A stretch of DNA of 44,345 nt, taken from contig JABXIA010000089.1 in assembly GCA_013373325.1 (NCBI GenBank), positions 1 through 44,345 on the forward strand, given 5' to 3'. Shown here piece after piece: positions 4,615-44,316 of this stretch. A model generated the notes under the pieces. The model saw only the letters and a list, made by a program, of their open reading frames with translations. It did not search any database and was not told the DNA's origin. This DNA comes from Paracoccaceae bacterium. Lineage in GTDB: Bacteria; Pseudomonadota; Alphaproteobacteria; Rhodobacterales; Rhodobacteraceae. The number at the start of each line of letters is the position of its first letter. The stretch's first letter is position 1. The position numbers and the translations under genes are program-made.

Positions 4615-4645
4615 CGCTGCCTGCGGTAAGCTCCCGCAAATTTCT

Positions 4646-4694: not shown

Positions 4695-4751
4695 AGGTCA
4701 GATTCGGGAAGCTTCCCGCCTGTCCTGTGGCGGCAGACAGGGAGCAAGGCC

Positions 4752-7157: not shown

Positions 7158-7161
7158 TCCA

Positions 7162-8718: not shown

Positions 8719-8719
8719 C

Positions 8720-16787: not shown

Positions 16788-16799
16788 GTCAGAAATTCC

Positions 16800-17432: not shown

Positions 17433-17469
17433 GGCGGGACTCCATCAGTTTTTCAGGGAAAAATGCAAA

Positions 17470-17496
17470 CGCCCCGCAGCGCGCGGCTGCGGGGCG
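17470..17496 (-). other. Strong stem-loop between dctP and dctQ (probable attenuator or partial terminator)
   Basis: CGCCCCGCAGC and GCTGCGGGGCG form a perfect 11-bp stem with a 5-base loop, 8 bases after the dctP stop. On the minus strand it is followed by GTTTGCATTTTTCC, a T-rich stretch. It can terminate part of the transcripts and protect the dctP mRNA 3' end, giving more binding protein than permease. Confidence 0.65.
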
Positions 17497-17504
17497 CGGC
17501 AGGG

Positions 17505-18515: not shown

Positions 18516-18612
18516 CAGTGCTCCTCCCAGAAACATGCGGATATGATTGGGGGAGTATCCGGGACGGCGGGCGGCCTGCCTATGAAGGAAACCGCGCGGC
18601 ATCTGCGGGCGG

Positions 18613-18632
18613 CCCTGCGGATTTCCGCAGGG
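18613..18632. promoter_or_regulatory. Perfect inverted repeat upstream of dctP (DctD site or dctD 3' hairpin)
   Basis: CCCTGCGGA and TCCGCAGGG around two bases, 98 bases upstream of dctP and 8 bases past the dctD stop. The centre GCGG-N4-CCGC recalls, from memory, rhizobial DctD-binding sites. Its position after a stop codon also fits the 3' hairpins found elsewhere in this window. I see no -24/-12 sigma-54 promoter between it and dctP. Confidence 0.5.
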
Positions 18633-18640
18633 CGTGCGGA

Positions 18641-21702: not shown

Positions 21703-21965
21703 TCCCGTCGATAGGCCGCAAAAACACGCCATGGCAAGACATTAGTGGCCCACAGGCACCCGCCGCTCTCAAGGCTGGACAACTTCCGCGCGCCTGCCGC
21801 ACACTCCGCAAACAAACCCCGTGCCGCGCGGAACCTTTCCGGGCGGCGGCACGTTGCATCTTTGGACAGCGTTCTGCACGCCGCCGCTGCGGCTCTCGAG
21901 GATGTGACCGCCCCGCGGCTGCAATTTCAGCCGCTTTGGCGCAGTCTTGAACAAAATAATGCCAG

Positions 21966-27396: not shown

Positions 27397-27588
27397 TTGG
27401 TCCTCCCAATTGTTTCTGATGCCTCAGCACCGGGGCCCTCCAGCCGCGGAAAGCTGAGCGGAGCGCGCGGCGGGATGAAGCTCTCCCGATGGCCCGGCAC
27501 TCCGGCATGGTCCTCCCCGCTGCCGCGGTTACGGGCAGCACACCTTCAAAAAACGAGCCGGATCGGGGAGGAGACCCGGCCCGCAAAG

Positions 27589-27620
27589 AGAAACCCGGCG
27601 GCCGCAAACCGCCGGGTTTC
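27589..27620 (-). terminator. Intrinsic terminator of the carnitine operon
   Basis: AAACCCGGCGG and CCGCCGGGTTT (11 bp, perfect) with a 7-base loop starts 5 bases past the lcdH stop. On the minus strand the stem ends in TTT and is followed by CTCTTT. The remaining 190 bases up to the BCCT start should contain the BCCT promoter; I see no clear motif in them. Confidence 0.8.
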
Positions 27621-27624
27621 CAAG

Positions 27625-29046
27625 TTATCCGCGCTGGCCCACGTGGCGCCCGGCGCCTTCGGGCAGCGGCAGGCCTGCGTGCGCCGCGGCAAAGGACGCC
27701 AGCTTGTCCGCCACCTCCGGCGACGGCAGCGAGGTGCCGCGCGCGGTCAGATCCATGTGCAACAGCAGCGTCTCCACCGTCGCCGCCAGCTTGCCCTCGG
27801 GGCCGTGCAATCGGTGGAACAGATGCATCTTCTTGCCGGTCCCTTGCAGCACCTGGGTGGTCACTGTCAGCGCATCGCCCTCGTGCAGCTCATCCAGGAA
27901 GCGCACGTGGTTCTCGACAGTGAAATAGCTGCCGCCCGCGGCGATGTACGCGGCGTCGCAGCCGATCATCTCCATGAACCTGTCGGTCGCCTGGGCCGAG
28001 GCCTCGGTGTAATGCGCCTCGTTCATGTGGCCGTTGTAGTCGGTCCAGCTCTGCGGCACCGGGCGGCTGACGGTGACCGGCAGCTCCGCCGCATCCGGCA
28101 CGGGCAGCATTGCCTCATGGGTGTTGATAACGCCCCCTGCCCCGCTGCCGGACTTCTTCAGCGCCCGCATCATGCCGACCAGGTTGTCATCGCGCAGCCG
28201 CTCCAGTTCGCGGATCGGCATATGGCCGGATTGCGCATCCGACTGGCCCGCGATCAGGTCGACCAGTTCCTCGGTGAACTCGGGCACATCCATCAGCTTG
28301 GTCCACGGCCATTCCAGCGCCGGACCGAACTGGGCCATGAAATGCTTCATGCCCGCCTCGCCGCCGGCAATCCGGTAGGTCTCGAACAGACCCATCTGCG
28401 CCCACCTGAGGCCAAAGCCCATGCGGATCGACTCGTCCAGCTCCTCGGTGGTGCAGATGCCGTCCTTGATCAGCCACAGGCCCTCGCGCCAGACCGCTTC
28501 CAGCAGACGGTCGGCAATATGCGCGTCGATCTCCTTGCGCACGGTCAGCGGGTACATCCCCACCTCGCGCAGCAAATCTGCGGCTTGCGCACAGGTCTCC
28601 GCATCGCCCACCAGCTCTACCAGCGGCAGCAGGTAAACCGGGTTGAACGGATGCGCTACCACGGCGCGGGCGCCTTTGGCATTCAGTTCCGAGGGCTTGA
28701 AGCCGCTGGTAGAAGAGCCGATCACCGCGGTCTCCGGCGCATGCGCCTGGATCTGCGCGTGGATCTTGTGTTTCAGATCCAGCCGCTCCGGCACGCTTTC
28801 CTGGATCCAGGCGGCATCCGCCACCGCTTCGGCGAGGTCGCTGTGGAAGGTCAGTTCGCCTTCGGCCGGCAGCGCCTTGTTATAAAGCGACGGCAAGGAG
28901 CGGCGGGCGTTGGCCAGCACTTCGCCGATTTTGCGTTCCGCTTCCGGGTCCGGGTCGAACACCCGCACATTCCAGCCGTTCAAAAGGAACCGCGCTGCCC
29001 AGCCGCCGCCAATAACCCCGCCGCCGATGATTGCTGCTGTTTTCAT
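27625..29046 (-). CDS. lcdH: L-carnitine 3-dehydrogenase fused to a betainyl-CoA thioesterase-like domain
   Basis: A 473-residue cytosolic protein of two parts. Residues 1-320 are a 3-hydroxyacyl-CoA dehydrogenase-type NAD enzyme: IIGGGVIGGGWAARFLLNGW (NAD binding), ESVPERLDLK, GSSTSGFKPSEL and AHPFNPVYLLPLVELV. Residues about 330-455 are a hotdog-fold thioesterase (WTDYNGHMNEAHYTEASAQA). This fusion is known for L-carnitine dehydrogenases of Rhizobium and relatives, where separate cdhA and cdhB genes of Pseudomonas are joined. It oxidises carnitine to 3-dehydrocarnitine and, by inference, hydrolyses betainyl-CoA to glycine betaine. AGAGGA precedes the ATG. It is the last gene of an operon with cdhC and an acetoacetate-CoA ligase. 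Confidence 0.93.
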   Translation of the reverse strand: MKTAAIIGGGVIGGGWAARFLLNGWNVRVFDPDPEAERKIGEVLANARRSLPSLYNKALPAEGELTFHSDLAEAVADAAWIQESVPERLDLKHKIHAQIQAHAPETAVIGSSTSGFKPSELNAKGARAVVAHPFNPVYLLPLVELVGDAETCAQAADLLREVGMYPLTVRKEIDAHIADRLLEAVWREGLWLIKDGICTTEELDESIRMGFGLRWAQMGLFETYRIAGGEAGMKHFMAQFGPALEWPWTKLMDVPEFTEELVDLIAGQSDAQSGHMPIRELERLRDDNLVGMMRALKKSGSGAGGVINTHEAMLPVPDAAELPVTVSRPVPQSWTDYNGHMNEAHYTEASAQATDRFMEMIGCDAAYIAAGGSYFTVENHVRFLDELHEGDALTVTTQVLQGTGKKMHLFHRLHGPEGKLAATVETLLLHMDLTARGTSLPSPEVADKLASFAAAHAGLPLPEGAGRHVGQRG

Positions 29047-29087
29047 GATCTATCCTCTGATCGCCCTCCCGGTGCGCCCGCCGGTGC

Positions 29088-29124
29088 ACAGGGGGTGTAC
29101 AGGGGGTGCACGCGTGGCACCCCC
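29088..29124 (-). repeat. Direct repeat plus stem-loop between cdhC and lcdH
   Basis: ACAGGGGGTG occurs twice in tandem with an 11-base period (29088-29109). The second copy enters a perfect hairpin, GGGGGTGC and GCACCCCC around ACGCGTG (29102-29124), 10 bases past the cdhC stop. The G-run copies could compete for pairing with the C-run arm. It may tune lcdH expression or mRNA stability. Confidence 0.5.
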
Positions 29125-29134
29125 GCATTTCGGC

Positions 29135-30052
29135 TTACTTCGCCACCGGCGCGCGCTTGGTCAGGCCCAGCTTCTCGCGGACCGCCTCCGGGCCGATGAT
29201 CAGGGCGCCCATGCCCTCGATCACGCCGACCGCGCGCTCCACAAGCTGTGCGTTGGTGGCCAGCACGCCCTTGTCCAGGAACAGGTTGTCCTCAAGGCCC
29301 ACCCGCACGTTGCCGCCCGCCAGCACCGACTGCGCCGCATAGGGCATCTGGTCGCGGCCCAGGGAGAACGCTGACCAGGTCCAGTCCGACGGCACATTGT
29401 TGACCATCGCCATAAAGGTGTTGAGGTCGTTCGGCGCCCCCCACGGCACCCCCATGCACAACTGCACCAGCGCGTTCGGCTCCAGAATGCCCTCCTTTAC
29501 CAGTTGCTTGGCAAACCACAGGTGGCCGGTGTCAAACGCCTCGATCTCCGGCTTCACGCCCAGATCGGTCATCATCTGGCCCATCGCCCGCAGCATGCCG
29601 GGGGTGTTGGTCATGACGTAATCGGCCTCGGCAAAATTCATGGTGCCGCAGTCCAGCGTGCAGATTTCCGGCAGGCACTCGGCGATATGGGCCATGCGTT
29701 CGCTCGCGCCGATCATGTCGGTCGCCGCCTCGTTGACCGGCAGCGGTGCTTCGGTCGAGCCGAACACGATGTCGCCGCCCATGCCCGCGGTCAGGTTCAG
29801 CACCACGTCCACCTCGGAATCGCGGATGCGGTCGGTAAGTTCCCGGTAATACTCAAGTTTCCGGGACGGTGCACCGGTCTCCGGGTCGCGCACATGGCAA
29901 TGAACCACCGCCGCGCCAGCCTTGGCGGCCGCGATTGCGGACTCGGCAATCTGCTTGGGCGAGCGCGGCACATGGGGGGATTTGTCCTGGGTGCCGCCAG
30001 AGCCGGTCACGGCGGCAGTGATGAAGACGTCTCGGTTCATGGTCAGGGGCAT
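29135..30052 (-). CDS. cdhC: BKACE-family 3-dehydrocarnitine cleavage enzyme
   Basis: A 305-residue TIM-barrel enzyme of the beta-keto acid cleavage family (formerly DUF849). It has the zinc ligands in VVHCHVRDPETG (H51, H53) and GGNVRVGLEDN (E254), and the VDVVLNLTAGMGGD motif. BKACE enzymes condense a beta-keto acid with acetyl-CoA and split it; in carnitine catabolism 3-dehydrocarnitine plus acetyl-CoA gives betainyl-CoA and acetoacetate. AAGGAG lies 8 bases before the ATG at 30052, deciding for it over the ATG four codons later. It follows the ligase gene by 18 bases and precedes the dehydrogenase-thioesterase. Specificity is assigned from context. Confidence 0.92.
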   Translation of the reverse strand: MPLTMNRDVFITAAVTGSGGTQDKSPHVPRSPKQIAESAIAAAKAGAAVVHCHVRDPETGAPSRKLEYYRELTDRIRDSEVDVVLNLTAGMGGDIVFGSTEAPLPVNEAATDMIGASERMAHIAECLPEICTLDCGTMNFAEADYVMTNTPGMLRAMGQMMTDLGVKPEIEAFDTGHLWFAKQLVKEGILEPNALVQLCMGVPWGAPNDLNTFMAMVNNVPSDWTWSAFSLGRDQMPYAAQSVLAGGNVRVGLEDNLFLDKGVLATNAQLVERAVGVIEGMGALIIGPEAVREKLGLTKRAPVAK

Positions 30053-30070
30053 GGTCTCGCTCCTTTGGGG

Positions 30071-32017
30071 TTAAGCTTGCAATTCAGGGTGATCCGCAAA
30101 CAGCGCCAGCGCCTGCGGATTGGCGATGCCGGAGAGGTTGCGGACGGGGAGTTTGTTCACCACGTCCCGCACCGCCAGCTCGGCGGTCTTGCCGGACTTG
30201 GTGCGCGGGATGTCAGCGACAGCGATGATCTTGGCCGGCACATGGCGCGGCGAGGCATTCCTGCGGATTTCCGTTTTGATCCTTGCGGTTAGCTCGTCGT
30301 CCAGCGCGGCACCTTCGGCGGGAACCACAAACAGCACCACCCGCACATCGTTGCCGATGCTCTGGCCCACAACCACCGCATCCGCGACCTCGCCGATCTT
30401 GTCGAGCTGCCGGTAAATCTCCGCCGTGCCGATCCGCACGCCGCCGGGGTTCAGCGTCGCGTCCGAGCGGCCCAGCACCACATAGCCGCCGTGCTCCGTG
30501 CGGGTGGTGAAATCGCCCTGCCGCCAGATATTGGGATAGGTCTCGAAATAGCTGGCGCGGTAGCGGGCATTGTCCGGGTCGTTCAGGAACCGCGTCGGCA
30601 TGGACGGATGCGCATTGCGGCAGACCAGCTCCCCCGCCGTGCCCTCAACCGGGTCGCCCTGACCGTTCAGGGTCGCCACATCCAGCCCCAGCATCGGCGC
30701 CTGGATTTCACCCTGATGCACCGGCAGCACCGGGCAGCCGCCGATGAAACAGCCCAGAATATCAGTGCCGCCGCAGATCGAAGCCAGCTGCACATCTGCC
30801 TTCCAGTCGGCATAGACATGGGCAAAGCTTTCGGGCGACAGCGGCGAGCCGGTGGACAGAACCACCCGCAAGGCGCTCAGATCGTGACTGTCCGCAGGCC
30901 GGTTGCGGCGCTTCAACGAGGCATCGATGTATTTGGCGGAAATGCCAAAATGCGTGACTTTCTCCGCCTCGGCCAGATCGAACAGGCGGCGCATGCCCGG
31001 ATACATCGGGTTGCCGTCAAACAGCACGATCACGGCCTCGGAGGCCAGCGCCGCCACCTGCCAGTTCCACATCATCCAGTTGCAGGTGGTGTAATAGAAC
31101 ATCCGGTCGCCCGGCTGCAGGTCGCAGTGCAGCTGCTGCTCCACCAGCATCCGCAGCAGGGTGCCGCCGCCGGAATGCTCGATACACTTGGGCTTGCCGG
31201 TGGTGCCGGAGGAAAACATCACATAGAGCGGATCGCGAAAGCCCATCGGCCGGCAGTCCAGTGCCGGGGCATCCGTCTGCTTGAACGCCTCATAGGCGGT
31301 CATGCCCTTTGGCAATTCCGCGGCATCGCCTGCATAGGGCCAGACCACGATCTGCTGGATCGACGGCACGCGGGCGGCGACTTCGGCAAACGCCGCGCGG
31401 GTCTCAAACGTCTTGCCGTTGTAGAAATAGCCGTCAGCGGCGAACATCAGCTTGGGTTCGATCTGGCCGAACCGGTCGACCACCACATCCGGCCCGCTTT
31501 CCGGCGCGCAGGAGGACCAGACCGCGCCCAGCGATGCCGCGGCCAGCATCGCCGCAACGGTCTGCGGCATGTTCGGCACATAGCCCGCGACGTGATCACC
31601 CGCCCCGATCCCCGCATCCCGCAGGGCGGCAGCGAGCATTTCCACCTCGCGCTTCAACTCGGCGCGGGTCCAGGCCATGCGGCGGCCATCCTCACCGATG
31701 AACACAATCGCCTCGCGCCCGTCAGCGTTCTTCAGGAATGTCTCCACGATGTTCAGCCGCGCTTCGGGGAAGAACCGGACCTGCATCGGGTCCTGATGAG
31801 ACAGCAGCGGAACTGTGCCCTGATCGCCCTTCAGCCCGCAGAACTCCCAGGCCAGCGGCCAGAAGTCCTGCGGCTGCGCAACCGACCAGGCGTGCAGTGC
31901 GGCGAAGCTGTCCAGAGCTGTGCCAGCGGCAGCAGAAGCCTGCGCCATGAAGCCGGACAGCAAAGGTTTGCGGCGCGCCGAAAGGTCCGGCTGCCAGAGG
32001 AGAGGAGCGGTGGTCAT
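30071..32017 (-). CDS. Acetoacetate-CoA ligase (acetoacetyl-CoA synthetase)
   Basis: A 648-residue adenylate-forming enzyme of normal length for acetoacetyl-CoA synthetases. Motifs are MFSSGTTGKPKCIEHSGGGT (P-loop-like A3), YTTCNWMMWNW, GGTDILGCF and GRSDATLNPGGVRIGTAEIY, with the catalytic lysine in PRTKSGKTAELAVRD. It activates acetoacetate with ATP and CoA in the cytosol. As first gene of the operon it removes the acetoacetate that cdhC releases, regenerating, after thiolysis, two acetyl-CoA, one of which repays the acetyl-CoA consumed. Its ribosome-binding site is weak (GAGA). The divergent GlxA-type regulator gene starts 128 bases away. Confidence 0.92.
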   Translation of the reverse strand: MTTAPLLWQPDLSARRKPLLSGFMAQASAAAGTALDSFAALHAWSVAQPQDFWPLAWEFCGLKGDQGTVPLLSHQDPMQVRFFPEARLNIVETFLKNADGREAIVFIGEDGRRMAWTRAELKREVEMLAAALRDAGIGAGDHVAGYVPNMPQTVAAMLAAASLGAVWSSCAPESGPDVVVDRFGQIEPKLMFAADGYFYNGKTFETRAAFAEVAARVPSIQQIVVWPYAGDAAELPKGMTAYEAFKQTDAPALDCRPMGFRDPLYVMFSSGTTGKPKCIEHSGGGTLLRMLVEQQLHCDLQPGDRMFYYTTCNWMMWNWQVAALASEAVIVLFDGNPMYPGMRRLFDLAEAEKVTHFGISAKYIDASLKRRNRPADSHDLSALRVVLSTGSPLSPESFAHVYADWKADVQLASICGGTDILGCFIGGCPVLPVHQGEIQAPMLGLDVATLNGQGDPVEGTAGELVCRNAHPSMPTRFLNDPDNARYRASYFETYPNIWRQGDFTTRTEHGGYVVLGRSDATLNPGGVRIGTAEIYRQLDKIGEVADAVVVGQSIGNDVRVVLFVVPAEGAALDDELTARIKTEIRRNASPRHVPAKIIAVADIPRTKSGKTAELAVRDVVNKLPVRNLSGIANPQALALFADHPELQA

Positions 32018-32083
32018 GGAAGTCTCAGTGGTTACAGAGCGGGCGTCAGGTGGGCGGCGGCGGATCGTAAAGATGCTTGACTT

Positions 32084-32102
32084 CCTGCGTGATTAGCGCA
32101 GG
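32084..32102. promoter_or_regulatory. Putative operator between the carnitine operon and cdhR
   Basis: CCTGCG and CGCAGG form a perfect inverted repeat around TGATTAG; the symmetry extends imperfectly to GACTTCCTGCG and CGCAGGAGTTG. It lies centrally in the 128-base divergent promoter region. TTGACG at 32105-32110 may be the -35 box of the regulator gene. Binding by the adjacent AraC-type regulator is inferred from position. Confidence 0.45.
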
Positions 32103-32145
32103 AGTTGACGCTGCGTTTATACAGTTTCGGTCAAATAGCAGACAA

Positions 32146-33132
32146 ATGCCGCCAAATCAGCCGCCCCTATTCGAATTCCTGCTGTTCGACGGGTTTTCCA
32201 ACATGGTGCTGGCCAGCGCCATGGAGCCGCTGCGCGACGTCCGGATGAACGCGGGCCAGGAGGTTGCCGGATGGCGTGTTACCACGCTGGACGGCGCACC
32301 GGTTCGCAGCTCCAGCGGGCTGCAGATCACCCCTGACGGCGCCTTTGACGAACGCCACGGCAACCGCACCCTGGTGCTGGTTGCGGGCTACCATGCGCGC
32401 GAACAGGTGACGCCTGCCCTGCTGGCCAGGCTCCGGACCGCCACGCGGGCTGCCCGGCTGATACTGGCGCTGGATACCGCCGCCTGGCTGCTGGCCGCCG
32501 CTGGCGTGCTGGACGGGCATAGCGCGACGATCCACTGGCAGGAGCTGGACGCCTTTGCCGAGACCTTCCCCAAGGTCGAGGTTTCCACCGCTCGGTTTGT
32601 CCGGTCCGGTCCGTTCCTCACCTGCGGCGGCGCCAGCACCGCCCTCGACATGATGCTGAGCCTCATTCAGGATCTCTACGGCTCTGCCGCCGCCTTTGGC
32701 GCCTCCACCATGTTTGTCTACGACCCGTCGCGCCAGTCGGGGCTGAACCGCGGCGCCGCGCGGCTGGAGCAGAAAGGCTCGCCCAAGATCCTGAAGGCGG
32801 CGAACCTGATGGCAGAGACCATCGAAACCCCGATGAGCACGGCGGCGCTGGCCAGGCGGGTGTCGCTGTCCGAGCGGACCCTGGCGCGCGCATTCCAGCG
32901 CGAGCTCGGCATGACGCCGGGCAAATACTACAAGATGCTGCGGCTCCAGCACGCCCGCTACCTGGCGGAGGAAACCCATCTGAGCCTGGAGCAGATTGCC
33001 CTGCGCTGCGGGTTTTCCTCTGCCTCCTCTCTGGGGCGGTCGTTCAGCGGGCACTTCGGCCGGACCATCCGCGAGGCGCAGCGACAGGAGAAACCCTGGG
33101 TGCAGAAGACCGGCCGCAGCGGGCGCGGCTGA
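32146..33132 (+). CDS. cdhR: GlxA-family (AraC-type) transcriptional regulator, CdhR-like
   Basis: A 328-residue regulator. Residues about 8-180 form a DJ-1/PfpI-like (class I amidotransferase fold) domain (FEFLLFDGFSNMVLASAMEP, TLVLVAGYHA, LALDTAAWLLAAAGVLDG), and residues about 220-315 the double-HTH AraC domain (MSTAALARRVSLSERTLARA, QRELGMTPGKYYKMLRLQHA, IALRCGFSSASSLGRSFSGH). This matches GlxA-type regulators such as Pseudomonas CdhR, which activates carnitine catabolism. The ATG at 32146 starts the conserved fold; an upstream ATG at 32077 would run through the operator. It is divergent from the operon it presumably activates in response to carnitine. Confidence 0.9.
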   Translation: MPPNQPPLFEFLLFDGFSNMVLASAMEPLRDVRMNAGQEVAGWRVTTLDGAPVRSSSGLQITPDGAFDERHGNRTLVLVAGYHAREQVTPALLARLRTATRAARLILALDTAAWLLAAAGVLDGHSATIHWQELDAFAETFPKVEVSTARFVRSGPFLTCGGASTALDMMLSLIQDLYGSAAAFGASTMFVYDPSRQSGLNRGAARLEQKGSPKILKAANLMAETIETPMSTAALARRVSLSERTLARAFQRELGMTPGKYYKMLRLQHARYLAEETHLSLEQIALRCGFSSASSLGRSFSGHFGRTIREAQRQEKPWVQKTGRSGRG

Positions 33133-34520: not shown

Positions 34521-35984
34521 TCAGCGCATTACAAAGGGATCGGGGATCGGATCGTCGCTGGTGCGCAGCCAGACAGCCTTCACCTTGGTGTAGTCCAGCG
34601 CCGCCTGCAGCCCGCCCTCGCGCCCGTGTCCTGACAGCCCGTGGCCGCCAAAGGGGGCAATCGGGCTGACCGCGCGGTAGGTGTTGACCCAGACAATGCC
34701 CGCGCGGATTCCCCGGATCATCCGGTGCGCGCGGGTGAGGTTCTGGGTGAACACACCCGAGGCAAGGCCAAAAGCCGTGTTGTTGGCTATTTCCATCGCC
34801 TCAGCCTCGGTCTCGAACTCCACCACCGACAGCACCGGGCCGAAGAATTCGTTCGACAGGCAGGGCGCCTCTGGCGCGGCAGAGCAATCCAGCACCGTGG
34901 GCAAAAAATAGAACCCCTCCCCTTCCGGCACTGTGCCGCCAGTGACCAGTTTTGCCCCCGCCTCAACCGAGGCCCCGATCAGCCGCAGCGCGTGGTCGCG
35001 CTGATTCTGGGTGCAAAGCGGCCCGACCTCGGTTGCCATGTCATCCGGCGCGCCGATCACCACCGCTTCGGCTTTCTCCTTCAGCCGCGCAAGAAACGCG
35101 TCCTTGATGCCCTTCTGGATCACCAGCCGCGATCCTGCGACGCAGCTTTGCCCGGTGGCAGCGAATATCCCAGAGACCTGCGCATTCACCGCACTTTCCA
35201 GATCGGCGTCGTCAAACACAATGAAAGGCGACTTGCCGCCCAGCTCCAGCGAGGTGGAGGCGAGGTTCTCCGCCGAATTGCGCACGATGTGGCGCGCGGT
35301 TTCCGGCCCGCCTGTAAAGGCCACATGGGCAACGCCCGCGTGGCTGGTCAGCGCGGCACCGGCCTCCGGCCCGCCGGTGATCACGTTCAGCACGCCGGGC
35401 GGGAAGCCCGCCTGATCAAAGATCCGGGCAAATTCCAGCATCGGCGCCGGGCCTTCCTCGGAGGCCTTCAAGACCACCGTGCAGCCCGCCGCCAGCGCCG
35501 GGCCGATCTTGACAGCGGACAGGAACAGCTGCGAGTTCCACGGCACGATGGCCGCCACCACACCCACCGGCTCGCGCCGCAGCCAGACCTCCATGTCCGG
35601 CTTGTCGATCGGCAGATGCGCGCCCTCGATCTTGTCCGCCAGGCCTGCGTAATAGCGGTAGTACTCCGCCACATAGGCAATCTGGGCCGAGGTCTCGCGG
35701 ATGATCTTGCCGGTGTCGCGGGTTTCCAGCTTTGCCAGCTGCTGCGCGTTTTCCGCCACCAGATCCGCCAGCCGCATCAACAACTTGCCGCGCTGGGTGG
35801 CACTCATCCCGGCCCATTCAGGCGAGAAGAACGCAGCCTCCGCAGCCCTGACCGCCCGGTCCACATCGCCTGCCGATGCGTTTGGCATCCGCGCCCAGGG
35901 TTTGCCGGTCGCGGGATCAAGGCTGTCAAAGGTTTCGCCTGCGTCCTCAAACGCGCCGTCGATATACTGCTGGAAAGACTGCAT
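34521..35984 (-). CDS. NAD(P)-dependent aldehyde dehydrogenase (TgnC-like by context)
   Basis: A 487-residue ALDH superfamily enzyme with all catalytic elements: N150 in VPWNSQLFL, the GGPEAGAAL/FTGGPETA cofactor loops, E247 in LELGGKSPF and nucleophile C281 in GQSCVAGSRL. It oxidises an aldehyde to the acid in the cytosol. AAGGAGC precedes the ATG. It is the last gene of the run AA_synth, hydrolase, flavin reductase, monooxygenase, and is separated from the monooxygenase gene by 148 bases and a hairpin. In trigonelline degradation an ALDH (TgnC) oxidises the ring-opening product; that role is proposed here by gene context only. Betaine-aldehyde or other semialdehydes are alternatives. Confidence 0.9.
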   Translation of the reverse strand: MQSFQQYIDGAFEDAGETFDSLDPATGKPWARMPNASAGDVDRAVRAAEAAFFSPEWAGMSATQRGKLLMRLADLVAENAQQLAKLETRDTGKIIRETSAQIAYVAEYYRYYAGLADKIEGAHLPIDKPDMEVWLRREPVGVVAAIVPWNSQLFLSAVKIGPALAAGCTVVLKASEEGPAPMLEFARIFDQAGFPPGVLNVITGGPEAGAALTSHAGVAHVAFTGGPETARHIVRNSAENLASTSLELGGKSPFIVFDDADLESAVNAQVSGIFAATGQSCVAGSRLVIQKGIKDAFLARLKEKAEAVVIGAPDDMATEVGPLCTQNQRDHALRLIGASVEAGAKLVTGGTVPEGEGFYFLPTVLDCSAAPEAPCLSNEFFGPVLSVVEFETEAEAMEIANNTAFGLASGVFTQNLTRAHRMIRGIRAGIVWVNTYRAVSPIAPFGGHGLSGHGREGGLQAALDYTKVKAVWLRTSDDPIPDPFVMR

Positions 35985-36092
35985 CTTCAGCTCCTTTGAT
36001 GGACCTTTGACGAAAGGTAAACAGGATCTTCACCAGTTAACCGCAAACTGGCTTCAGGAGCGATACGCTCTGCCGCCACACTTTGGCCAAGC

Positions 36093-36129
36093 AGGCCCGG
36101 CGCGCGCCCCCACCCTGTGCGCCGGGCCT
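36093..36129 (-). other. Perfect stem-loop between the monooxygenase and aldehyde dehydrogenase genes
   Basis: AGGCCCGGCGC and GCGCCGGGCCT form an 11-bp perfect stem with a 15-base loop, 3 bases past the monooxygenase stop. There is no T-run on the minus strand, so it may reduce rather than stop transcription into the ALDH gene. Confidence 0.6.
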
Positions 36130-36132
36130 CAT

Positions 36133-37170
36133 TTATTGAAACGCGGGCATGACTTCGGTGATGAACCGCTCAAGCGAGGCTTTCTTGCGCTCGAAACTCA
36201 TGCTGCTGTCGATCCAGAACGAATACTCATCATAGCCCAGGGCTTCGTATTTCTTCAGCCGTTCAATCACCGCCGCCGGTTCACCGATCACCAGATCACG
36301 CTCCATCGCCTCGGGCGAGTAGAACGGATGCGCGGCAATCTCCTCATCTGACAGCGGGTCAATCAAGCCCTGGCTGACATCCCGCTTGTTCATGAACCAG
36401 GCCCCGAAATAGCAATAGAAGCGGTTCAGCTCCTCTGCCCCGCGCTTCACATCCGCCGCGCTGTCCGCCACATAGGTGTGCTGCAGCAGCATGATCTTGG
36501 GCCGCGGCACATCGGCGTGCTTGGCGCAGGCATCGTTGAACTTGCCCATCAGGTCAGTGATTTCCTCATCACCCTTCCACAGAGGCGTCACCTGCACGTT
36601 GCAGCCGTTGGCCACGGCAAATTCATGGCTGTTGGGATCGCGCGCCGCCACCCAGATCGGCGGGCCGTCCTGCTGCAGCGGCTTGGGCGAGGAGATGGTT
36701 TTCGGGAAGGAATGGAATTCTCCCTCCTGCGCATAGTCGCCCTGCCACAGGCCCTGCACCGCCGGGATCAGCTCGCGCATCCGCTGGCCTGCCTCCCAGG
36801 CGTCCATGCCCGGCATCATGCGTTCGTACTCAAACGAATAGGCGCCGCGGGCGATGCCCAGATCCAGACGGCCATCCGTGATGATGTCGGTCATCGCCGC
36901 CTCACCCGCCAGCCGGATCGGATGCCAGAACGGCGCAATCACCGTCCCCGTGCCCAGCCGCACGTTCTTGGTCTGCCGCGCCACGTCAATCAGGTTCAGG
37001 AACGGGTTCGGCGAGATGGTGAAATTCATCCCGTGATGCTCGCCGGTCCAGACCGCGTGCATGCCGCCGTCATCGGCGATTTTGCACAGCTGGATGAACT
37101 CGTCATAAAGCCGCTTCTGATCGTCCCCTTCGGAAATCCGCTCCATATGCGCAAAGAGTGAAAATTTCAT
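36133..37170 (-). CDS. Luciferase-like (LLM) flavin-dependent monooxygenase, oxygenase component (TgnB-like by context)
   Basis: A 345-residue bacterial-luciferase-fold monooxygenase. MKFSLFAHMERISEGDDQKR starts the barrel; WTGEHHGMNFTISPNPFLNL, VRLGTGTVIAPFWHPIRLAG and RLDLGIARGAYSFEYERMMP are typical LLM motifs for binding reduced flavin. Such enzymes need a partner flavin reductase, and its gene overlaps this one by 4 bases (ATGA) upstream. The fold is shared by RutA (pyrimidine ring opening), pyridine monooxygenase PyrA and trigonelline oxygenase TgnB. The full cluster composition best matches the trigonelline system; the substrate is therefore proposed to be an N-heterocycle. Confidence 0.9.
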   Translation of the reverse strand: MKFSLFAHMERISEGDDQKRLYDEFIQLCKIADDGGMHAVWTGEHHGMNFTISPNPFLNLIDVARQTKNVRLGTGTVIAPFWHPIRLAGEAAMTDIITDGRLDLGIARGAYSFEYERMMPGMDAWEAGQRMRELIPAVQGLWQGDYAQEGEFHSFPKTISSPKPLQQDGPPIWVAARDPNSHEFAVANGCNVQVTPLWKGDEEITDLMGKFNDACAKHADVPRPKIMLLQHTYVADSAADVKRGAEELNRFYCYFGAWFMNKRDVSQGLIDPLSDEEIAAHPFYSPEAMERDLVIGEPAAVIERLKKYEALGYDEYSFWIDSSMSFERKKASLERFITEVMPAFQ

Positions 37171-38093
37171 GCGCCCTTGCTCCCTGTGGCCACGGGGCGG
37201 ACCTGCCCGGTGGTCTGATTGCCATAATACACCCCGAAATTGCCCATCCGGGCCTCACTGGCGAACCGCTCCAGCATGGTGCACATCGCCGCATCGGCAA
37301 TGTCCATCAGCGTGGATTGGGTCAGTGCCGTGAAAACACCCTTGGCCGGTGTGCCGCCGGCCGATTGGCACAGGAACGAGATGTGCTGATGTTCGCGCGC
37401 TTTGTCTTCGTAGACGGAATAAATGAACCCCGGCTCCGCCTCGACGCCGGTGTCCGCGATCAGCTTGGCGAGCGCGGCAGAGGCGCCCTCCTTGCCGACG
37501 CGGATTTCAGGCAGCGTCAGCTTGCCCTGGTCGTTGCCCATGAGCAGCACCTTGCCCTCATGCTCAATCAGAGCAGAAACGATCAGCTTGGCCCCTTGGG
37601 TCAGGGCTTCGGCCTCCGCCGCTGCTGTCACATAGGCGCCGCGGGCATATCCCAGCCCCGGCGCTGGCGAGGTCTCAAACGCCTCAACCCGGCCGATCAG
37701 GATCAGGTGGTCGCCCGCCTCAACCCGGTTGTGCATGGAACAGTCGAACCAGGCGGAAACGCCCTCAAACACCGGGCTGCCCTCCGGCCCCTTCTGCCAG
37801 TTGACGGCAGCAAAGCGGTCCTCGACGGGCCGGGCAAAGGTGTTGGAGACGTCCTTCTGGTCCTCTGCCAGCACATTGACGGCAAACCCATCCGCCTGAT
37901 CGAAGGCCGCATAATTGCTGGAGGAATTGGCAATACAGACCAGCACCAGCGGCGGGTCCAGCGACACGGAGGTGAAGGAATTGGCGGTAAAGCCGATGGG
38001 GTTTCCCTCGGGGTCATGCGTTGTCACCACGGTGACGCCGGTCATGAAAGTGCCGAATGCATTGCGCAAGGCGCGCGGGTCGATCTCGCTCAT
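37167..38093 (-). CDS. Flavin reductase with C-terminal Nudix-like domain (TgnA-like by context)
   Basis: A 308-residue protein. Residues 1-160 are a split-barrel flavin reductase (DIM6/NTAB type): RNAFGTFMTGVTVVTTHDPE, GFTANSFTSVSLDPPLVLVC, FAVNVLAEDQ and DHLILIGRVEAFE. It supplies FMNH2 or FADH2 to the adjacent monooxygenase. Residues about 168-260 resemble a Nudix fold (KLIVSALIEHEGKVLLMGND, LTLPEIRVG, GFIYSVYEDKAREHQHISFL) but the Nudix box is degenerate: GKEGASAALAKLIADTGVEA lacks the REXXEE glutamates, so hydrolysis is unlikely and a sensing or binding role is more probable. Both ends overlap neighbours by 4 bases, so translation is coupled to the hydrolase and monooxygenase genes. Confidence 0.88.
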   Translation of the reverse strand: MSEIDPRALRNAFGTFMTGVTVVTTHDPEGNPIGFTANSFTSVSLDPPLVLVCIANSSSNYAAFDQADGFAVNVLAEDQKDVSNTFARPVEDRFAAVNWQKGPEGSPVFEGVSAWFDCSMHNRVEAGDHLILIGRVEAFETSPAPGLGYARGAYVTAAAEAEALTQGAKLIVSALIEHEGKVLLMGNDQGKLTLPEIRVGKEGASAALAKLIADTGVEAEPGFIYSVYEDKAREHQHISFLCQSAGGTPAKGVFTALTQSTLMDIADAAMCTMLERFASEARMGNFGVYYGNQTTGQVRPVATGSKGA

Positions 38094-38893
38094 GACGTTG
38101 CTCCTTCCGTATCCAGCCAGTCCTGCAAGGCGGCGTTGACCGCTGCGGGGGCGGTCAGGTTGACCATATGCCGGTGGCCTTCGATGACAACCGCCCTCCC
38201 CTGCGGCGCGGCATCCGCCATGGCCTGTGCCATCGCGGGCGTCGAGTTCGGATCGCCATCGCCGGTCAGCGCCAGCAGCGGGCAGCGGATGCCCGCGAAC
38301 CCATCCGCATAGGTGCTGTCGCCGCGGGCAAAGGCGGTATAGGCGGCGGCGTAACCCGCCAGGTCCACGCCCGACAGCCAGTCTGCCACCTGCGCCCGCG
38401 TGGCTTGGTCGGCGGGGCTGTTGCCGAACCAGCGCGCCAGCGGCGTTTCCAGATCAAAGCTGCCCGCGCGGATTTCAGCCGCGCGCGCCTCAACCGCTGC
38501 CCGTGCGTCAGCGGAACGGCGGAACACCCCGTTCAGCAGCGCCACGCGGGCCGCGTTTTTCGGATGGCTGACAGCATAGCCGCCGGCAATCAGCGCGCCC
38601 ATGGAATGGCCCGCCAGACTGACCGGCCCCAGATCCAGCGCATGCAGCACAGTATTAAGCCAGGCCACATAATCCGGCAGTTCTGCGCCCTCCGGCAGCG
38701 GCGCGCTGCCGCCATGGCCGGGCATGTCCAGCGCGATGACCTCATGGGTCTGCGCAAAAGCCTCAATCTGCGGCCCCCAGGCCGCCGATTGCATGCCGAC
38801 CCCGTGAATCAGCACCAGCGGCGCCCCCTCCCCTGCCCTGAGGCAGGCAGCAGGGCCGTAAGGCTCAGACAGCTGCAGGGTTGTCGACGTCAT
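38090..38893 (-). CDS. Alpha/beta-fold hydrolase (TgnD-like by context)
   Basis: A 267-residue alpha/beta hydrolase. The oxyanion motif PLVLIHGVGMQSAAW, the nucleophile elbow LAGHSMGALIAG (serine) and the late GHRHMVNL (histidine) form the expected catalytic set, with an acid in LTGDGDP. It hydrolyses an ester, amide or enamide in the cytosol. The start at 38893 (AAGGAA upstream) puts the first strand where the family has it and overlaps the AA_synth gene by 29 bases; the downstream end overlaps the flavin reductase by 4. In the Rut and Tgn systems a hydrolase of this fold processes the ring-opened product, which fits its place here. Confidence 0.9.
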   Translation of the reverse strand: MTSTTLQLSEPYGPAACLRAGEGAPLVLIHGVGMQSAAWGPQIEAFAQTHEVIALDMPGHGGSAPLPEGAELPDYVAWLNTVLHALDLGPVSLAGHSMGALIAGGYAVSHPKNAARVALLNGVFRRSADARAAVEARAAEIRAGSFDLETPLARWFGNSPADQATRAQVADWLSGVDLAGYAAAYTAFARGDSTYADGFAGIRCPLLALTGDGDPNSTPAMAQAMADAAPQGRAVVIEGHRHMVNLTAPAAVNAALQDWLDTEGATS

Positions 38894-39467
38894 GGCCCAG
38901 TTCCTTGAGGTCCTGATAGCGGTCGCCGATCCGGTGATGCGGCCGCCCGCCGATGGAGGCGCCAAGCGCGATCACGATCTCATCCGGGCCCGGCGCATCT
39001 GCCACCGACAGCTGGATGGTCAGGTAGTGGCTGCGCCGCCCGCCGTCGTTCTTGTCCATCAGCGGGATCTGCAGCGAGGCGTTCGCGGGCCCGCGGGTAT
39101 TGGTGAAGGCCAGATAGGATTTCGCCCCCACCGCCTCGCGGAAGTGATTGCCAAAGCGCAGCGTGTGAATAAGGGCAGAGGCATGCTCCACCTCGCCATT
39201 GACGCCGACGATGGCGGATTTACCGTATCCCTCCACCTTGTCGCCGCCGCCTGCGGCCTCCAGCACCATCGCCGTCAGCTTCTCGCCCAGACCCGGTGCG
39301 CAGTCATGGATCGCCGGGCGCAGGTCCTCGACAAAGCCCTGCCCGGCCCAGGGGTTTTTGATCACCGCCACCGCGGCAATCATTTTCAGCGGCGTCTCAG
39401 CTGCCTTGCCGCCCTCGATCAGGGTTTCTTCGACATGCAGCAGCGTCTTGCGGATTTCGGCGGGCAT
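38865..39467 (-). CDS. AA_synth (PF06684, DUF1185) family protein
   Basis: A 200-residue protein of the family named amino acid synthesis, whose biochemical role is not established. Typical parts are RKTLLHVEETLIEGGKAAET, PLKMIAAVAVIKNPWAGQGF, DKVEGYGKSAIVGVNGEVEH and GGRRSHYLTIQLSVADAPGP with IGGRPHHRIGDRYQDLKELG at the end. The start at 39467 gives the family-typical length; the same frame continues far upstream, through the promoter and the divergent gntR, which is not credible. AGGAAAG lies upstream. It is the first gene of the catabolic operon, directly behind the GntR operator. By context it may isomerise or hydrate a ring-cleavage intermediate; that is speculation. Confidence 0.85.
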   Translation of the reverse strand: MPAEIRKTLLHVEETLIEGGKAAETPLKMIAAVAVIKNPWAGQGFVEDLRPAIHDCAPGLGEKLTAMVLEAAGGGDKVEGYGKSAIVGVNGEVEHASALIHTLRFGNHFREAVGAKSYLAFTNTRGPANASLQIPLMDKNDGGRRSHYLTIQLSVADAPGPDEIVIALGASIGGRPHHRIGDRYQDLKELGHDVDNPAAV

Positions 39468-39505
39468 CGGCGGTGTCTTTCCTGTCTGATTCCAGTTGTC
39501 ATAAT

Positions 39506-39532
39506 ATGGTATACCATCATACAGTATGTCAA
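39506..39532. promoter_or_regulatory. GntR-type operator and overlapping promoter
   Basis: Two adjacent perfect palindromes lie between the divergent genes: ATGGTATACCAT (39506-39517), of the TGGTATACCA form common for FadR-subfamily GntR regulators, and CATACAGTATG (39518-39528). On the minus strand TTGACA (39532-39527) is a good -35 box for the AA_synth operon, so a bound repressor would cover its promoter. Confidence 0.65.
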
Positions 39533-39575
39533 TGCAGACTTGTTCCGCTCTGCCCCGGTTGCTATCGGAGGAAAC

Positions 39576-40250
39576 ATGACCAGCCCCATCATGAGCAAAA
39601 TCGACCACCAGCCGCAGACCCTGCGCGATATCGTGCAGGAACGGATGCGCGAGGCGATCATCTCCGGCCAGTTTGCCCCCGGCGAGCGGCTGGTGGAGCG
39701 CCCCCTGTGCGACCAGCTTGGCGTCAGCCGCACCGTGGTGCGCGAAACGATCCGGTATCTGGAGGCGGAGGGGCTGGTGGAGATCCTGCCCGGCAAGGGG
39801 CCGATCGTGGCGCAGCTCACGTGGGCCGACGCGCGGCAGATCTACGATATCCGCCAGATGCTGGAGACCGCCGCCGCCACTGCCTGCGCCCGCAACATCA
39901 CGCCGCAGCTGGCAGAACAGCTGAAAGCGGCGCTGCAGAGCCTGCAAAAGGCCGTGGCCGCAGGCGTGCCCACCCCGATGCTGCAGGCCACAACTGAATT
40001 CTACCGGATCATCTTTGACGGCGCCGGCCACAACGTCGCCTGGGAAATCGCCCAGCGTCTGAACGGGCGCATCAGCCGCTTGCGGGCGGTGACGCTGTCG
40101 ATTGCAGAACGCCAGAAACCCGGCCCCGCCCATATGCGGGATATCTGCGAGGCCATCGTCTCCGGCAATACGGAGGCCGCCCGCACCGCCATCGAACAGC
40201 ATCTGAGCGACGCCAAACACACCGCCGAGCGGCTGCTGAACGAAACGTAG
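39576..40250 (+). CDS. GntR-family transcriptional regulator (FadR subfamily)
   Basis: A 224-residue regulator. The winged HTH is at residues 14-75: TLRDIVQERMREAIISGQFA, PGERLVERPLCDQLGVSRTV and VRETIRYLEAEGLVEILPGK. The FCD effector domain follows from about 85 to 215, with metal/ligand-type residues in YDIRQMLETAAATACARNIT, EFYRIIF and EAARTAIEQHLSDAKHTAER. CGGAGGAAAC precedes the ATG. It is divergent from the AA_synth-hydrolase-reductase-monooxygenase operon and the palindromes between them suit a FadR-type dimer. It is probably a repressor relieved by the pathway substrate. Convergent hutU is unlikely to be its target. Confidence 0.92.
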   Translation: MTSPIMSKIDHQPQTLRDIVQERMREAIISGQFAPGERLVERPLCDQLGVSRTVVRETIRYLEAEGLVEILPGKGPIVAQLTWADARQIYDIRQMLETAAATACARNITPQLAEQLKAALQSLQKAVAAGVPTPMLQATTEFYRIIFDGAGHNVAWEIAQRLNGRISRLRAVTLSIAERQKPGPAHMRDICEAIVSGNTEAARTAIEQHLSDAKHTAERLLNET

Positions 40251-40331: not shown

Positions 40332-42014
40332 TCACCCCAGAATGCCAGGCAGGTTCAGGCCGCAAGCCTTGGCATGGTCTTTGGCGATGTCGTACCCCGC
40401 ATCCGCGTGGCGCATGACGCCGGTCGCCGGATCGTTCCACAGCACCCGGCCGATGCGGCGGTCGGCGTCCTCGGTGCCGTCGCAGCAGATCACCACGCCG
40501 GAATGCTGCGAGAAGCCCATGCCAACGCCGCCGCCATGGTGCAGCGACACCCAGGTGGCACCGGAGGCGGTGTTCAAAAGCGCGTTCAGCAGCGGCCAGT
40601 CGGAGACAGCGTCGGAGCCGTCCATCATCGCCTCGGTCTCGCGGTTGGGCGAGGCCACGGACCCCGAGTCCAGATGGTCGCGGCCAATCACCACCGGCGC
40701 CGACAGCTCACCGTTGCGGACCATCTCGTTGAACGCGAGGCCGGCCTTGTGGCGGTCGCCGAGACCGATCCAGCAGATCCGCGCGGGCAGGCCCTGGAAG
40801 GCGATACGCTCCTGCGCCATGTCCAGCCAGCGGTGCAGGCCCTCGTACTCGGGGAACAGCTCCTTCATCTTGGCGTCGGTCTTGCGGATGTCCTCCGGGT
40901 CGCCCGACAGCGCGCACCAGCGGAACGGGCCGATGCCCTTGCAGAACAGCGGGCGGATATAGGCAGGCACGAAACCCGGGAAGTCAAAGGCGTTCTCCAG
41001 CCCCTCCTCCAGCGCCATCTGGCGGATGTTGTTGCCGTAATCCACGGTGGGAACACCCATCGCGTGGAAATCGCACATCGCCTTGACCTGAACCTTCATC
41101 GAAGCGCGGGCAGCCTTTTCCACCGCTTTCTTGTCACTCTCGCGGCGCTCCTTCCACTCACCCATGGTCCAGCCCAGCGGCAGGTAGCCGTTGACCGGGT
41201 CGTGGGCGGAGGTCTGGTCGGTCACGATATCTGGGCGGATGCCACCAGCTTCGGCGCGCTTCACCAGCTCCGGGAAGATCTCAGCCGCGTTGCCCAGAAG
41301 GCCCACGGATTTTGCTTCGCCATTGGCGGTCCAGCGCTCGATCATCTCCAGCGCCTCGTCCAGGGTCTCGGCCTTCTCGTCCAGGTATTTGGTGCGCAGA
41401 CGGAAGTCGATGCTGTCGGGATTGCACTCCACCGCCAGACAGCAGGCACCGGTAAAGACAGCCGCCAAAGGCTGCGCGCCGCCCATGCCGCCCAGGCCGC
41501 CGGTCAGGATCCACTTGCCCTTGAGGTCGCCGCCGTAATGCTGGCGGCCGGCCTCGGCAAAGGTCTCATAGGTGCCCTGCACAATGCCCTGCGTGCCGAT
41601 ATAGATCCACGAACCAGCGGTCATCTGGCCGTACATCATCAGGCCCTTCTTATCGAGCTCGTTGAAGTGGTCCCAGTTGGCCCAATGCGGCACCAGGTTG
41701 GAGTTGGCGATCAGCACCCGGGGCGCGTCCTTGTGGGTCTGGAAAACGCCGACCGGCTTGCCGGACTGCACCATCAGGGTCTGGTCGTCGTCCAGGTTCT
41801 TCAGGGTCTCGACAATGAGGTCAAAGTCCTTCCAGGTGCGCGCAGCGCGGCCGATGCCGCCGTAGACCACCAGCTCATGCGGGTTTTCGGCGACGTCGGG
41901 ATGCAGGTTGTTCATCATCATCCGCATCGGCGCCTCGGTGACCCAATGCTTGGCAGTGATTTCCGGGCCGGTGGGCGGGAAGATGTCGCGGGTGTTCTTG
42001 CGGGGATCGCTCAT
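40332..42014 (-). CDS. hutU: Urocanate hydratase
   Basis: A 560-residue enzyme, normal length for HutU, converting urocanate to 4-imidazolone-5-propanoate with tightly bound NAD. Clear motifs are [14 protein letters not shown] near the N-terminus, the NAD-binding [40 protein letters not shown] and [20 protein letters not shown] with the conserved cysteine, plus [15 protein letters not shown]. The start at 42014 overlaps the hutG stop (ATGA), which decides it against a much longer frame upstream. It is the last gene of the hut run in this window and ends 9 bases before the terminator array. Confidence 0.97.
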
Positions 42015-42796
42015 GCCGAGGGCCTCCAGTTTTTGAGATCGGTCAGAATGTTGGTTAGATGGGCGCGCAAGTCTTCCGCACGCTCCGGCAGATAAGTCCA
42101 AGGGGGGCTCTCCTGGCAGTAGGTGGCCTGCGCCAGTTCCATCTGGATCGCGTGCAGGCCGTCCGCAGGACGCCCGTAATGGCGGGTGGTCCAACCGCCC
42201 TTGAAGCGCCCGTTCAGGGTGGAGGTATAGCCCTCCGCCGCCTCGCAATGGGCCACGGTCAGCGCCTCAATGGCCGCGTCGCAGGTTTCACCCATGTTGG
42301 TGCCCACGTTGAAATCCGGCAGGCGGCCTTCGAACAGGAAGGGGATATCGCCGCGGATCGAGTGGCAATCGTACAGTATGGCAAAACCGTGGATCGCCTT
42401 CACCCGCTCCAGCTCCGCCGTCAGCGCCGCGTGATAGGGCGCGTGATAGGCGTCGCGGCGGCGGGTGATCTCCGCCTCGTTCGGCTCCTTGCCTTCCTGC
42501 CAGATCGGCAGCCCGTCAAAATCCGTGAGCGGCACCAAAGTGGTGGTGTTTTGCCCGGGATAGAGACTGAGTCCACCCGGATCACGGTTCACGTCGATCA
42601 CATAGCGGTGGATCGGCGTGCGGACGGTCGTGATGTCCTCCACCAGTCCGGAATACAGGTCGTGGATATGCCAGTCTGTGTCCGCCAGCGCCCTGCCCGT
42701 CTCATTGAGGCATTCCCAAACCTCCGGCGGTACATCGGTGCCGGTGTGGGGCAGCCCCAGCACCAGTGGCGAGGCGCCTTGGGTCACTTCGATCAT
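42011..42796 (-). CDS. hutG: N-formylglutamate deformylase
   Basis: A 261-residue N-formylglutamate amidohydrolase. [60 protein letters not shown] and [20 protein letters not shown] are the family motifs; His/Asp residues in PHTG, DCHS and related positions bind the zinc. It releases formate from N-formylglutamate to give glutamate, implying the five-step HutF/HutG branch of histidine degradation rather than formimidoylglutamase. It overlaps hutH and hutU by 4 bases each (ATGA), so the three are translationally coupled. Confidence 0.95.
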
Positions 42797-44316
42797 GCCG
42801 CCACCTTCACGCCTGCGGCATCCGCGACGCGGCCCGCACGGACCATGGCGCTTGCTGCCTCGATGTCGGGCGCCAGATAGCGGTCCTCAGCCAGCGAAGG
42901 GATCTCCTCGCGCAGCATCGCCAGCACGTCCTGCAAGCGGGCCGAGGTCTTGAGCGGCGCACGCGCCTCAACCCCTTGCGCGGCACAGAGCATTTCGACG
43001 CCCAGGATCACCGACAGATTTGCGTTCATCTTCGCCAGACGCAGCGCGCCGTGGGCGGCCATCGACACGTGGTCCTCCTGGTTGGCCGAGGTCGGGGTCG
43101 AGTCAGTCACGCAGGGGTTCGCGAGATGCTTGTTCTCGCTCATCAGCGCTGCAGTGGTCACCTCGGCGATCATGAAGCCCGAGTTCAGACCGGGATCGGG
43201 TGTCAGGAACGGCGGCAGGTCGTGGCTGAGGGTCGGGTCCACCATCAAGGCCACCCGGCGCTGCGCGATAGCGCCGATTTCGGCCACCGCCAGCGCGATC
43301 TGATCCGCGGCAAAGCCCACGTACTCGGCATGGAAGTTGCCGCCGGAAACGATGCGGCCTTCGTTCACCAGCACCAGCGGGTTGTCGGTGACGGCGTTGG
43401 CCTCGATCTCCAGCGTTCTGGCGGCCATCCGCAGCACGTCCAGCGCCGCGCCTACCACCTGCGGCTGGCAGCGGATGCAATAGGGATCCTGCACCCGGGT
43501 GTCATCCTCGCGGTGGCTCTCGCGGATTTCGGACCCGTCCATGATGGCGCGCATCTCACGCGCCACATCGACCTGCCCGGCATGGCCGCGAAGGGAGTGG
43601 ATGTCGGCCACCAGCGGCGCAGTAGATCCCATGATGGCGTCCGTGGTCAGCGACGCGATGGTCATCGAGGCCTCAGCCATGCGCCAGGCATCGAACAACC
43701 CGGCCAAGGCGCAGGCGGTGGAGAACTGGGTGCCGTTGATCAGCCCCAGGCCTTCCTTGGGACCCAGTACAATAGGCTCTAACCCGGCCTTTTTCAGCGC
43801 TTCCGCGCTGGCCATGCGGGTGCCTTCGAACGTGGCCTCCCCTGCCCCTATCATCGCCGCCGCCATATGTGCCAGCGGTGCCAGGTCGCCGGAGGCGCCG
43901 ACGGAACCCTGCGACGGGATCACCGGCACCACGCCGCGCTCCAGCATCTGCTCGATCTGTTCGATCACCAGCCAGCGCACGCCCGATGCACCGCGGCCCA
44001 TCGACAGCAGTTTCAGTGTCATCATCAGCCGGGTCTTATCCTCCGGTAGCGCCTCCCCTACCCCGCAGCAATGGCTGAGGATCAGGTTGCGCTGCAGAGT
44101 GGCCGTATCTTCCGGTGCGATCTTGGTCGAGGCCAGCTTGCCGAAGCCGGTGTTGATGCCATAAACGGCTTCCTCACCCGCCGCGGCGTCCGCCACCATC
44201 TTGGCAGCGGCCTCCACCGGCTCACGCGCCGAGGCATCCAGCCTGGCCGGGGTCAGGTTGCGGTAGATATCTTCCAGCGTGGACAGCGTCACCGTGCCGG
44301 GGATCATCTCGATCAT
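42793..44316 (-). CDS. hutH: Histidine ammonia-lyase
   Basis: A 507-residue histidase that deaminates histidine to urocanate. The MIO cofactor-forming triad A141-S142-G143 is present in [21 protein letters not shown]52 is in [12 protein letters not shown], and [20 protein letters not shown] and [14 protein letters not shown] (interrupted family motif RVQDPYCIR) follow. The ATG at 44316 has GAGGG upstream; an ATG three codons later is possible. It overlaps hutG by 4 bases downstream, and upstream its ATG overlaps the stop of another gene, so it lies inside a longer hut operon. Confidence 0.96.

Follow-up and report, generated by a model that had tools for sequence, protein, structure and literature searches.

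A probable trigonelline catabolic operon of the tgn type, with a conserved putative operator, in a roseobacter contig

The window analysed here, a contig of 44,345 nucleotides from a Paracoccaceae bacterium (JABXIA010000089.1, assembly GCA_013373325.1), carries five enzyme-type genes on its minus strand and a divergent gene for a GntR regulator. Sequence comparison indicates that this cluster is very probably an operon for the catabolism of trigonelline (N-methylnicotinate), of the tgn type. Trigonelline is a small nitrogenous molecule that plants and plankton produce, and the tgn trigonelline pathway of Acinetobacter was reportedly described by Perchat et al. in 2018. The cluster adds a representative to an established pathway family; its putative operator is well defined, and one of its proteins has no assigned role. 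The cluster would give a gene-level basis for trigonelline use by roseobacters, and the operator could be used for finding and reporting the pathway. The monooxygenase is 97.7% identical in Leisingera sp. S132, and from these nearest records we infer that the host is Leisingera or a close relative.

Relationship of the cluster to Acinetobacter tgn genes

The genes are ordered, in the direction of transcription, AA_synth, alpha/beta hydrolase, flavin reductase, monooxygenase and aldehyde dehydrogenase (Table 1). The first-pass annotation had placed five enzyme-type genes on one strand, four of them linked by overlaps, and both Pfam matches and coordinates bear this out: AA_synth and hydrolase genes overlap by 29 bases, hydrolase and reductase by 4, and the reductase gene by another 4 with the monooxygenase gene that adjoins it. 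The 148-base gap before the aldehyde dehydrogenase gene contained no promoter- or terminator-like site on scanning. In the flavin reductase, no Pfam match was found outside residues 14–156. The open frame of gntR starts at 38892, its likely start codon being the ATG at 39576. None of the NCBIfam models shown for the five enzymes scored above its own cut-off (for the dehydrogenase, the best 25 of 44 models; AA_synth has none).

Table 1. Features of the putative trigonelline operon and its control region, with identities to Acinetobacter sp. PK01
Feature	Position	Strand	Evidence
Aldehyde dehydrogenase, TgnC-type	34521-35984	-	Pfam Aldedh E 3.5e-162; 69.7% to PK01 tgnC
Luciferase-like monooxygenase, TgnB-type ring-opening oxygenase (predicted)	36133-37170	-	Bac_luciferase 8.1e-50; 73.5% to PK01 tgnB; clade A 99/99
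Flavin reductase, TgnA-type, extra C-terminal domain	37167-38093	-	Flavin_Reduct residues 14-156/308; 50.8% to PK01 tgnA
Alpha/beta hydrolase, proposed TgnD-type	38090-38893	-	Abhydrolase_1 1.3e-22; 56.1% to PK01 positional counterpart
AA_synth / DUF1185 protein, operon's first gene	38865-39467	-	PF06684 E 2.7e-70; 69.4% to PK01 counterpart
GntR/FCD regulator, probable repressor	39576-40250	+	Pfam GntR 1.8e-17, FCD 2.5e-23; 47.2% to PK01 GntR
Putative operator ATGGTATACCAT	39506-39517	strandless	Conservation across clade A and genus genomes; binding presumed
Predicted operon promoter TTGACA-N18-CATATT	39503-39532	-	Consensus scan
Predicted gntR promoter TTGTCA-N18-TACAGT	39496-39525	+	Consensus scan

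To place the cluster, the monooxygenase was compared by tblastn with plasmid records, 326 of which (out of 72,556) matched at E<=1e-40. Among these matches was a gene of Acinetobacter sp. PK01 that carries the annotation tgnB and whose neighbourhood reads GntR (divergent), amino acid synthesis protein, alpha/beta hydrolase, tgnA, tgnB and tgnC, the order seen in the window. All six proteins have counterparts there (identities in Table 1; that to tgnA is over 295/308 residues). The trigonelline ring-opening cluster proposed at first pass is thus supported, with a two-component oxygenase, a TgnC-type dehydrogenase and an alpha/beta hydrolase in the Acinetobacter order.

We also surveyed 149 genomes drawn from the family, 37 of which had an oxygenase match at E<=1e-60. 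The identities split into 66–100% in 22 genomes (clade A) and 36–42% in 16 genomes, at 17 places (clade B), with both clades present in a single genome, G063. In the host's own genome (90.5% complete) no second, clade B match was found at the same threshold. A 60-row tree placed the window oxygenase in clade A (28 rows, 99/99) with Acinetobacter TgnB and members from Burkholderia, Pantoea, Rhizobium and Sinorhizobium meliloti, and clade B formed a separate group (26 rows, 98/93). The first-pass annotation had named a position far from TgnB as grounds for abandoning its proposal; the protein lies within the TgnB clade. Escherichia coli RutA and SsuD, which were used because the RutA and SsuD models found no member above cut-off in the 13 genomes searched, fell far outside both clades. 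Six outgroup branches are very long, so that joins there may be false, and the branch uniting A and B has only 91/58. The clades also differ in gene arrangement, the order AA_synth-hydrolase-reductase-oxygenase-dehydrogenase being found in full in 25 of 28 clade A loci as against 0 of 18 clade B loci (the clade A loci without it are L071, L072 and L073, of which L073 is on a contig 8,014 bases long), and 31 oxygenase positions separate the two. Within clade A, L071–L075 make up a divergent branch with oxygenases 66–69% identical to that of the window and no close gntR beside the cluster.

A conserved palindrome between AA_synth and gntR

The gap between AA_synth and gntR contains a perfect 12-base palindrome, ATGGTATACCAT. 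A consensus scan of this gap found two divergent promoters, against 0.2 in shuffled sequences; the palindrome overlaps the spacer and −10 box of the predicted operon promoter and lies within the spacer of the predicted gntR promoter. In 26 of the 28 clade A loci the AA_synth gene was available as an anchor for scoring, and exact TGGTATACCA was present upstream of it in 22 of these 26, the S. meliloti site having one mismatch. Across the genus, ATGGTATACCAT occurred at 22 sites in 21/21 genomes, one for each copy of the cluster and nowhere else in them. All 22 sites lie, by coordinates, just upstream of AA_synth, 37–50 bases from its start. One of these genomes, G004, has two copies of AA_synth and the cluster (C1:38450 and C4:116875), each with its own operator.

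A reversed control pattern was absent from all 21 genus genomes. With one mismatch allowed, shuffles of the window gave an operator match in 21/100 cases; such matches are therefore not rare, and the case for the operator rests on conservation rather than rarity. Judged by that conservation, the palindrome is more than a chance occurrence. The simplest reading is that GntR would repress both divergent promoters through ATGGTATACCAT, possibly until released by trigonelline or an intermediate. The divergent GntR regulator and operator of the first-pass annotation were confirmed, by Pfam GntR and FCD matches for the one and conservation beyond chance for the other.

Proposed pathway and alternative substrates

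In the Acinetobacter pathway, two-component ring cleavage reportedly precedes a dehydrogenase and a hydrolase step, yielding methylamine, formate, CO2 and succinate semialdehyde, the last of which is passed to succinate semialdehyde dehydrogenase (SSADH). By analogy, the TgnA-like reductase would supply reduced flavin and the TgnB-like luciferase-like oxygenase would cleave the pyridinium ring; the TgnC-like aldehyde dehydrogenase may then oxidise the ring-opened aldehyde or lactone, and the TgnD-like hydrolase would convert an N-formyl enamine diacid to methylamine, formate, CO2 and succinate semialdehyde. Completion would fall to SSADH and methylamine enzymes encoded elsewhere. Residues C281, E247 and N150 of the dehydrogenase, which we take to be the catalytic Cys, Glu and Asn typical of aldehyde dehydrogenases, are invariant in 27 clade A rows; likewise S97 and H242 of the hydrolase, presumably its catalytic Ser and His, are invariant in 26 (both counts after a length filter). 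The hydrolase matches 3kxp, an alpha-(N-acetylaminomethylene)succinic acid hydrolase, at E 1.8e-12, with six structures scoring better. The step catalysed by that enzyme is chemically similar to the proposed TgnD step. In Acinetobacter, Rhizobium and S. meliloti an SSADH gene accompanies the cluster; the host's own genome has one SSADH over the curated cut-off, away from the cluster (G000:C328), and long sarcosine-oxidase-alpha-like proteins, the best four of which are 33–37% identical to the PK01 protein. In passages of PMC8269262, trigonelline is reported to support better growth of the roseobacter Ruegeria pomeroyi DSS-3 than homarine does.

Further support comes from S. meliloti ml47. On its plasmid pSymA the clade A cluster is followed by NIPSNAP, four ABC transporter genes and an SSADH gene, and is flanked by nodD2, stc3, ccoNOP, nodL and noeAB on one side and by nifT, nifB, nifA, fixAB-type genes and nifH on the other. 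Goldmann et al. (1991), as cited in a passage of PMC12489286, mapped trigonelline catabolism to the symbiotic region of S. meliloti pSym. This link appears to support trigonelline independently of the Acinetobacter annotation, at the level of the region and not of individual genes, and an old genetically mapped region is now linked to a defined gene cluster. The S. meliloti reductase (19069–20004 of its locus, L105) matches Protein Data Bank (PDB) entry 3rh7 across its entire 311 residues, differing visibly at a single one, and residues 4–303 of the window reductase, C-terminal part included, match the same entry. The structure was deposited as ‘Hypothetical oxidoreductase’; these matches suggest that it is the reductase of a trigonelline oxygenase.

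Several observations weigh against trigonelline as the substrate. In PK01 the tgn names come from RefSeq annotation and not from a direct comparison with the Acinetobacter baylyi proteins, and the PK01 hydrolase at the matching position is not named tgnD. The best PDB matches of the window hydrolase are esterases and an enol-lactonase, and RutD also scores above 3kxp. No transporter or SSADH gene adjoins the window cluster. A search of clade A neighbours found no transporter family widely common to the roseobacter loci, a weak result given that the simple open reading frame caller missed true genes; one ABC ATPase family was present in 6/27 loci. Among the 26 loci scored, the operator is missing in L072, L074 and L075 of the divergent clade A branch, where the nearest approach to a gntR beside the cluster is a weak 25% match in L075. 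The DSS-3 evidence is of growth and not of clade A genes in R. pomeroyi, and trigonelline is far rarer in the sea than homarine (passages of PMC8269262). The passages of the trigonelline-degradation literature that were covered do not contain this operon in roseobacters; beyond them coverage was of titles, and we make no claim of absence from print.

Homarine (N-methylpicolinate) was our first guess at the substrate, and it was set aside because the tgnB identity and a separate clade B appeared. That the operon degrades homarine by a like ring opening, with N-methylglutamate as product, now seems improbable. It would suit a marine host and the reported transect in PMC8269262, in passages of which homarine is given at nM and trigonelline only at pM levels, and a homarine pathway using Mgd has been published (2026 paper cited in a passage of PMC13390433). 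However, the window oxygenase belongs to the TgnB clade alongside rhizobial and soil members, the sister clade with the same enzyme families is the one spread across marine plankton (G063 having both), and, again in passages of PMC8269262, action of TgnAB on homarine is argued on steric grounds to be unlikely. Clade B is probably the homarine operon. Homarine catabolism is said to be encoded by a five-enzyme operon plus regulator, named hom. In a survey of clade B in genome contigs, 508 of 539 pattern matches were confirmed, and the best 80 (the most query-like), which were retained, include Planktomarina, SAR116, Roseovarius, HTCC2150, Granulosicoccaceae and Acidimicrobiales. Linkage to sarcosine-oxidase- or mgd-like genes was considered as a sign of homarine use in these 80 loci, but was weak (SoxB-like in 5, SoxD-like in 3, SoxA-like in 2) and was not used. 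L076 branches separately at the base of clade B together with a locus on Agrobacterium fabrum pAt (L106, 7466–14256) that encodes flavin reductase, dehydrogenase, oxygenase, hydrolase, CMD, NIPSNAP, AA_synth and glyoxylate/hydroxypyruvate reductase, with a glycine betaine/proline transporter nearby.

Slightly less probable still is a different pyridine as the compound opened, whether N-methylated (1-methylnicotinamide, for example) or plain, or a broad substrate range: substrates can vary among close homologues, but high identity over several genes and an order kept from gamma- to alphaproteobacteria suggest one shared substrate. An unrelated luciferase-like oxygenase system, whether of Rut type (pyrimidines), for alkanesulfonates or other, would draw on the same enzyme superfamilies, and the hydrolase also matches the RutD structure, but this reading is hardly credible and appears largely refuted by the tree, in which E. 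coli RutA and SsuD sit far outside on very long branches; the RutF and SsuD models, moreover, scored far under their cut-offs on the window proteins (for the SsuD model TIGR03565, 19.3 bits against 518.2). Of the first-pass proposal of trigonelline ‘or other N-heterocycle’, then, trigonelline stands and the remainder can be narrowed, with RutA and SsuD distant and homarine more likely served by the sister operon. This sets the trigonelline route apart from a sister operon that probably serves homarine.

The AA_synth protein had been put forward as an unassigned step, with which we agree, although it is not peculiar to the window operon, since the clusters of Acinetobacter, Burkholderia, Pantoea, Rhizobium and Sinorhizobium also have it. 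It is present in 26 of 28 clade A loci and, in clade B, in 16 of 18 loci of one set and 64 of the best 80, and is a core component of the operon. The window copy is the only PF06684 member in its genome; some relatives have more. Its structural model (mean pLDDT 88) gave fold matches below E 0.001 to DUF1185 structures only (3byq and 2qtp), and the next match, to dihydrodipicolinate reductase (E 0.01, TM 0.27), gives no clue to function. Invariant residues in 24 sequences include E94, H95, H101, N107, R110, N123, R125, R145, D157, R179 and R183, some of which, for example E94-H95 and R110, also occur in both solved family members. We tentatively suggest, with low confidence, that DUF1185/AA_synth might be an unrecognised enzyme or partner needed in flavin-dependent opening of N-methylpyridinium rings. 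It might act at a stage common to both branches, on the freshly opened N-formyl-N-methyl enamine aldehyde (by lactone opening or Z/E isomerisation, for example), and the two clades might then be paralogous five-gene toolkits for two isomeric betaines of plants and plankton. The analysis makes the role of DUF1185 the biochemical question to be answered.

Genomic surroundings and comparison with known systems

On one side of the operon lies a carnitine cluster (25705–33132) comprising a BCCT transporter, carnitine 3-dehydrogenase, 3-keto-5-aminohexanoate cleavage protein, acetoacetate-CoA ligase and a GlxA-type regulator; the names are taken from the matching plasmid of Leisingera sp. S132, and the ligase passes its NCBIfam cut-off. 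On the other are histidine utilisation (hut) genes (40332–44316) for urocanate hydratase, N-formylglutamate deformylase and histidine ammonia-lyase, named by synteny with the same strain. Further away, genes read from their translations as dimethylglycine-dehydrogenase-like, trimethylamine-methyltransferase-family (MttB-like) and a TetR-like regulator (4500–9391) look like a betaine-use island; the cluster of Ruegeria sp. SCSIO 43209 likewise has a FAD oxidoreductase gene and one of the MttB family as neighbours. A three-gene TRAP transporter, found with a two-component system at 15387–21732 (also read from translations), is a possible candidate for uptake of one of the betaines.

With the E. 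coli Rut pathway the operon has in common a luciferase-like oxygenase, a flavin reductase and an alpha/beta hydrolase, but RutA falls far outside the window clade and no RutB- or RutC-type gene is found among the five enzyme genes. The hom operon, if it corresponds to clade B, is made up of the same enzyme families, AA_synth included; its oxygenase is only 36–42% identical to that of the window, and the gene orders differ. S. meliloti pSymA has the five genes in the window order with a GntR gene and an operator one mismatch off. There, unlike in the window, GntR is co-directional, and ABC transporter, NIPSNAP and SSADH genes come after the operon. The tgn cluster of Acinetobacter PK01 shares the five genes in the same order, the divergent GntR and the operator sequence TGGTATACCA, and adds beside it a DUF1330 gene, a cytosine-permease-like gene, SSADH, CMD and sarcosine-oxidase-like genes, whereas the neighbours of the window cluster are hut and carnitine genes.

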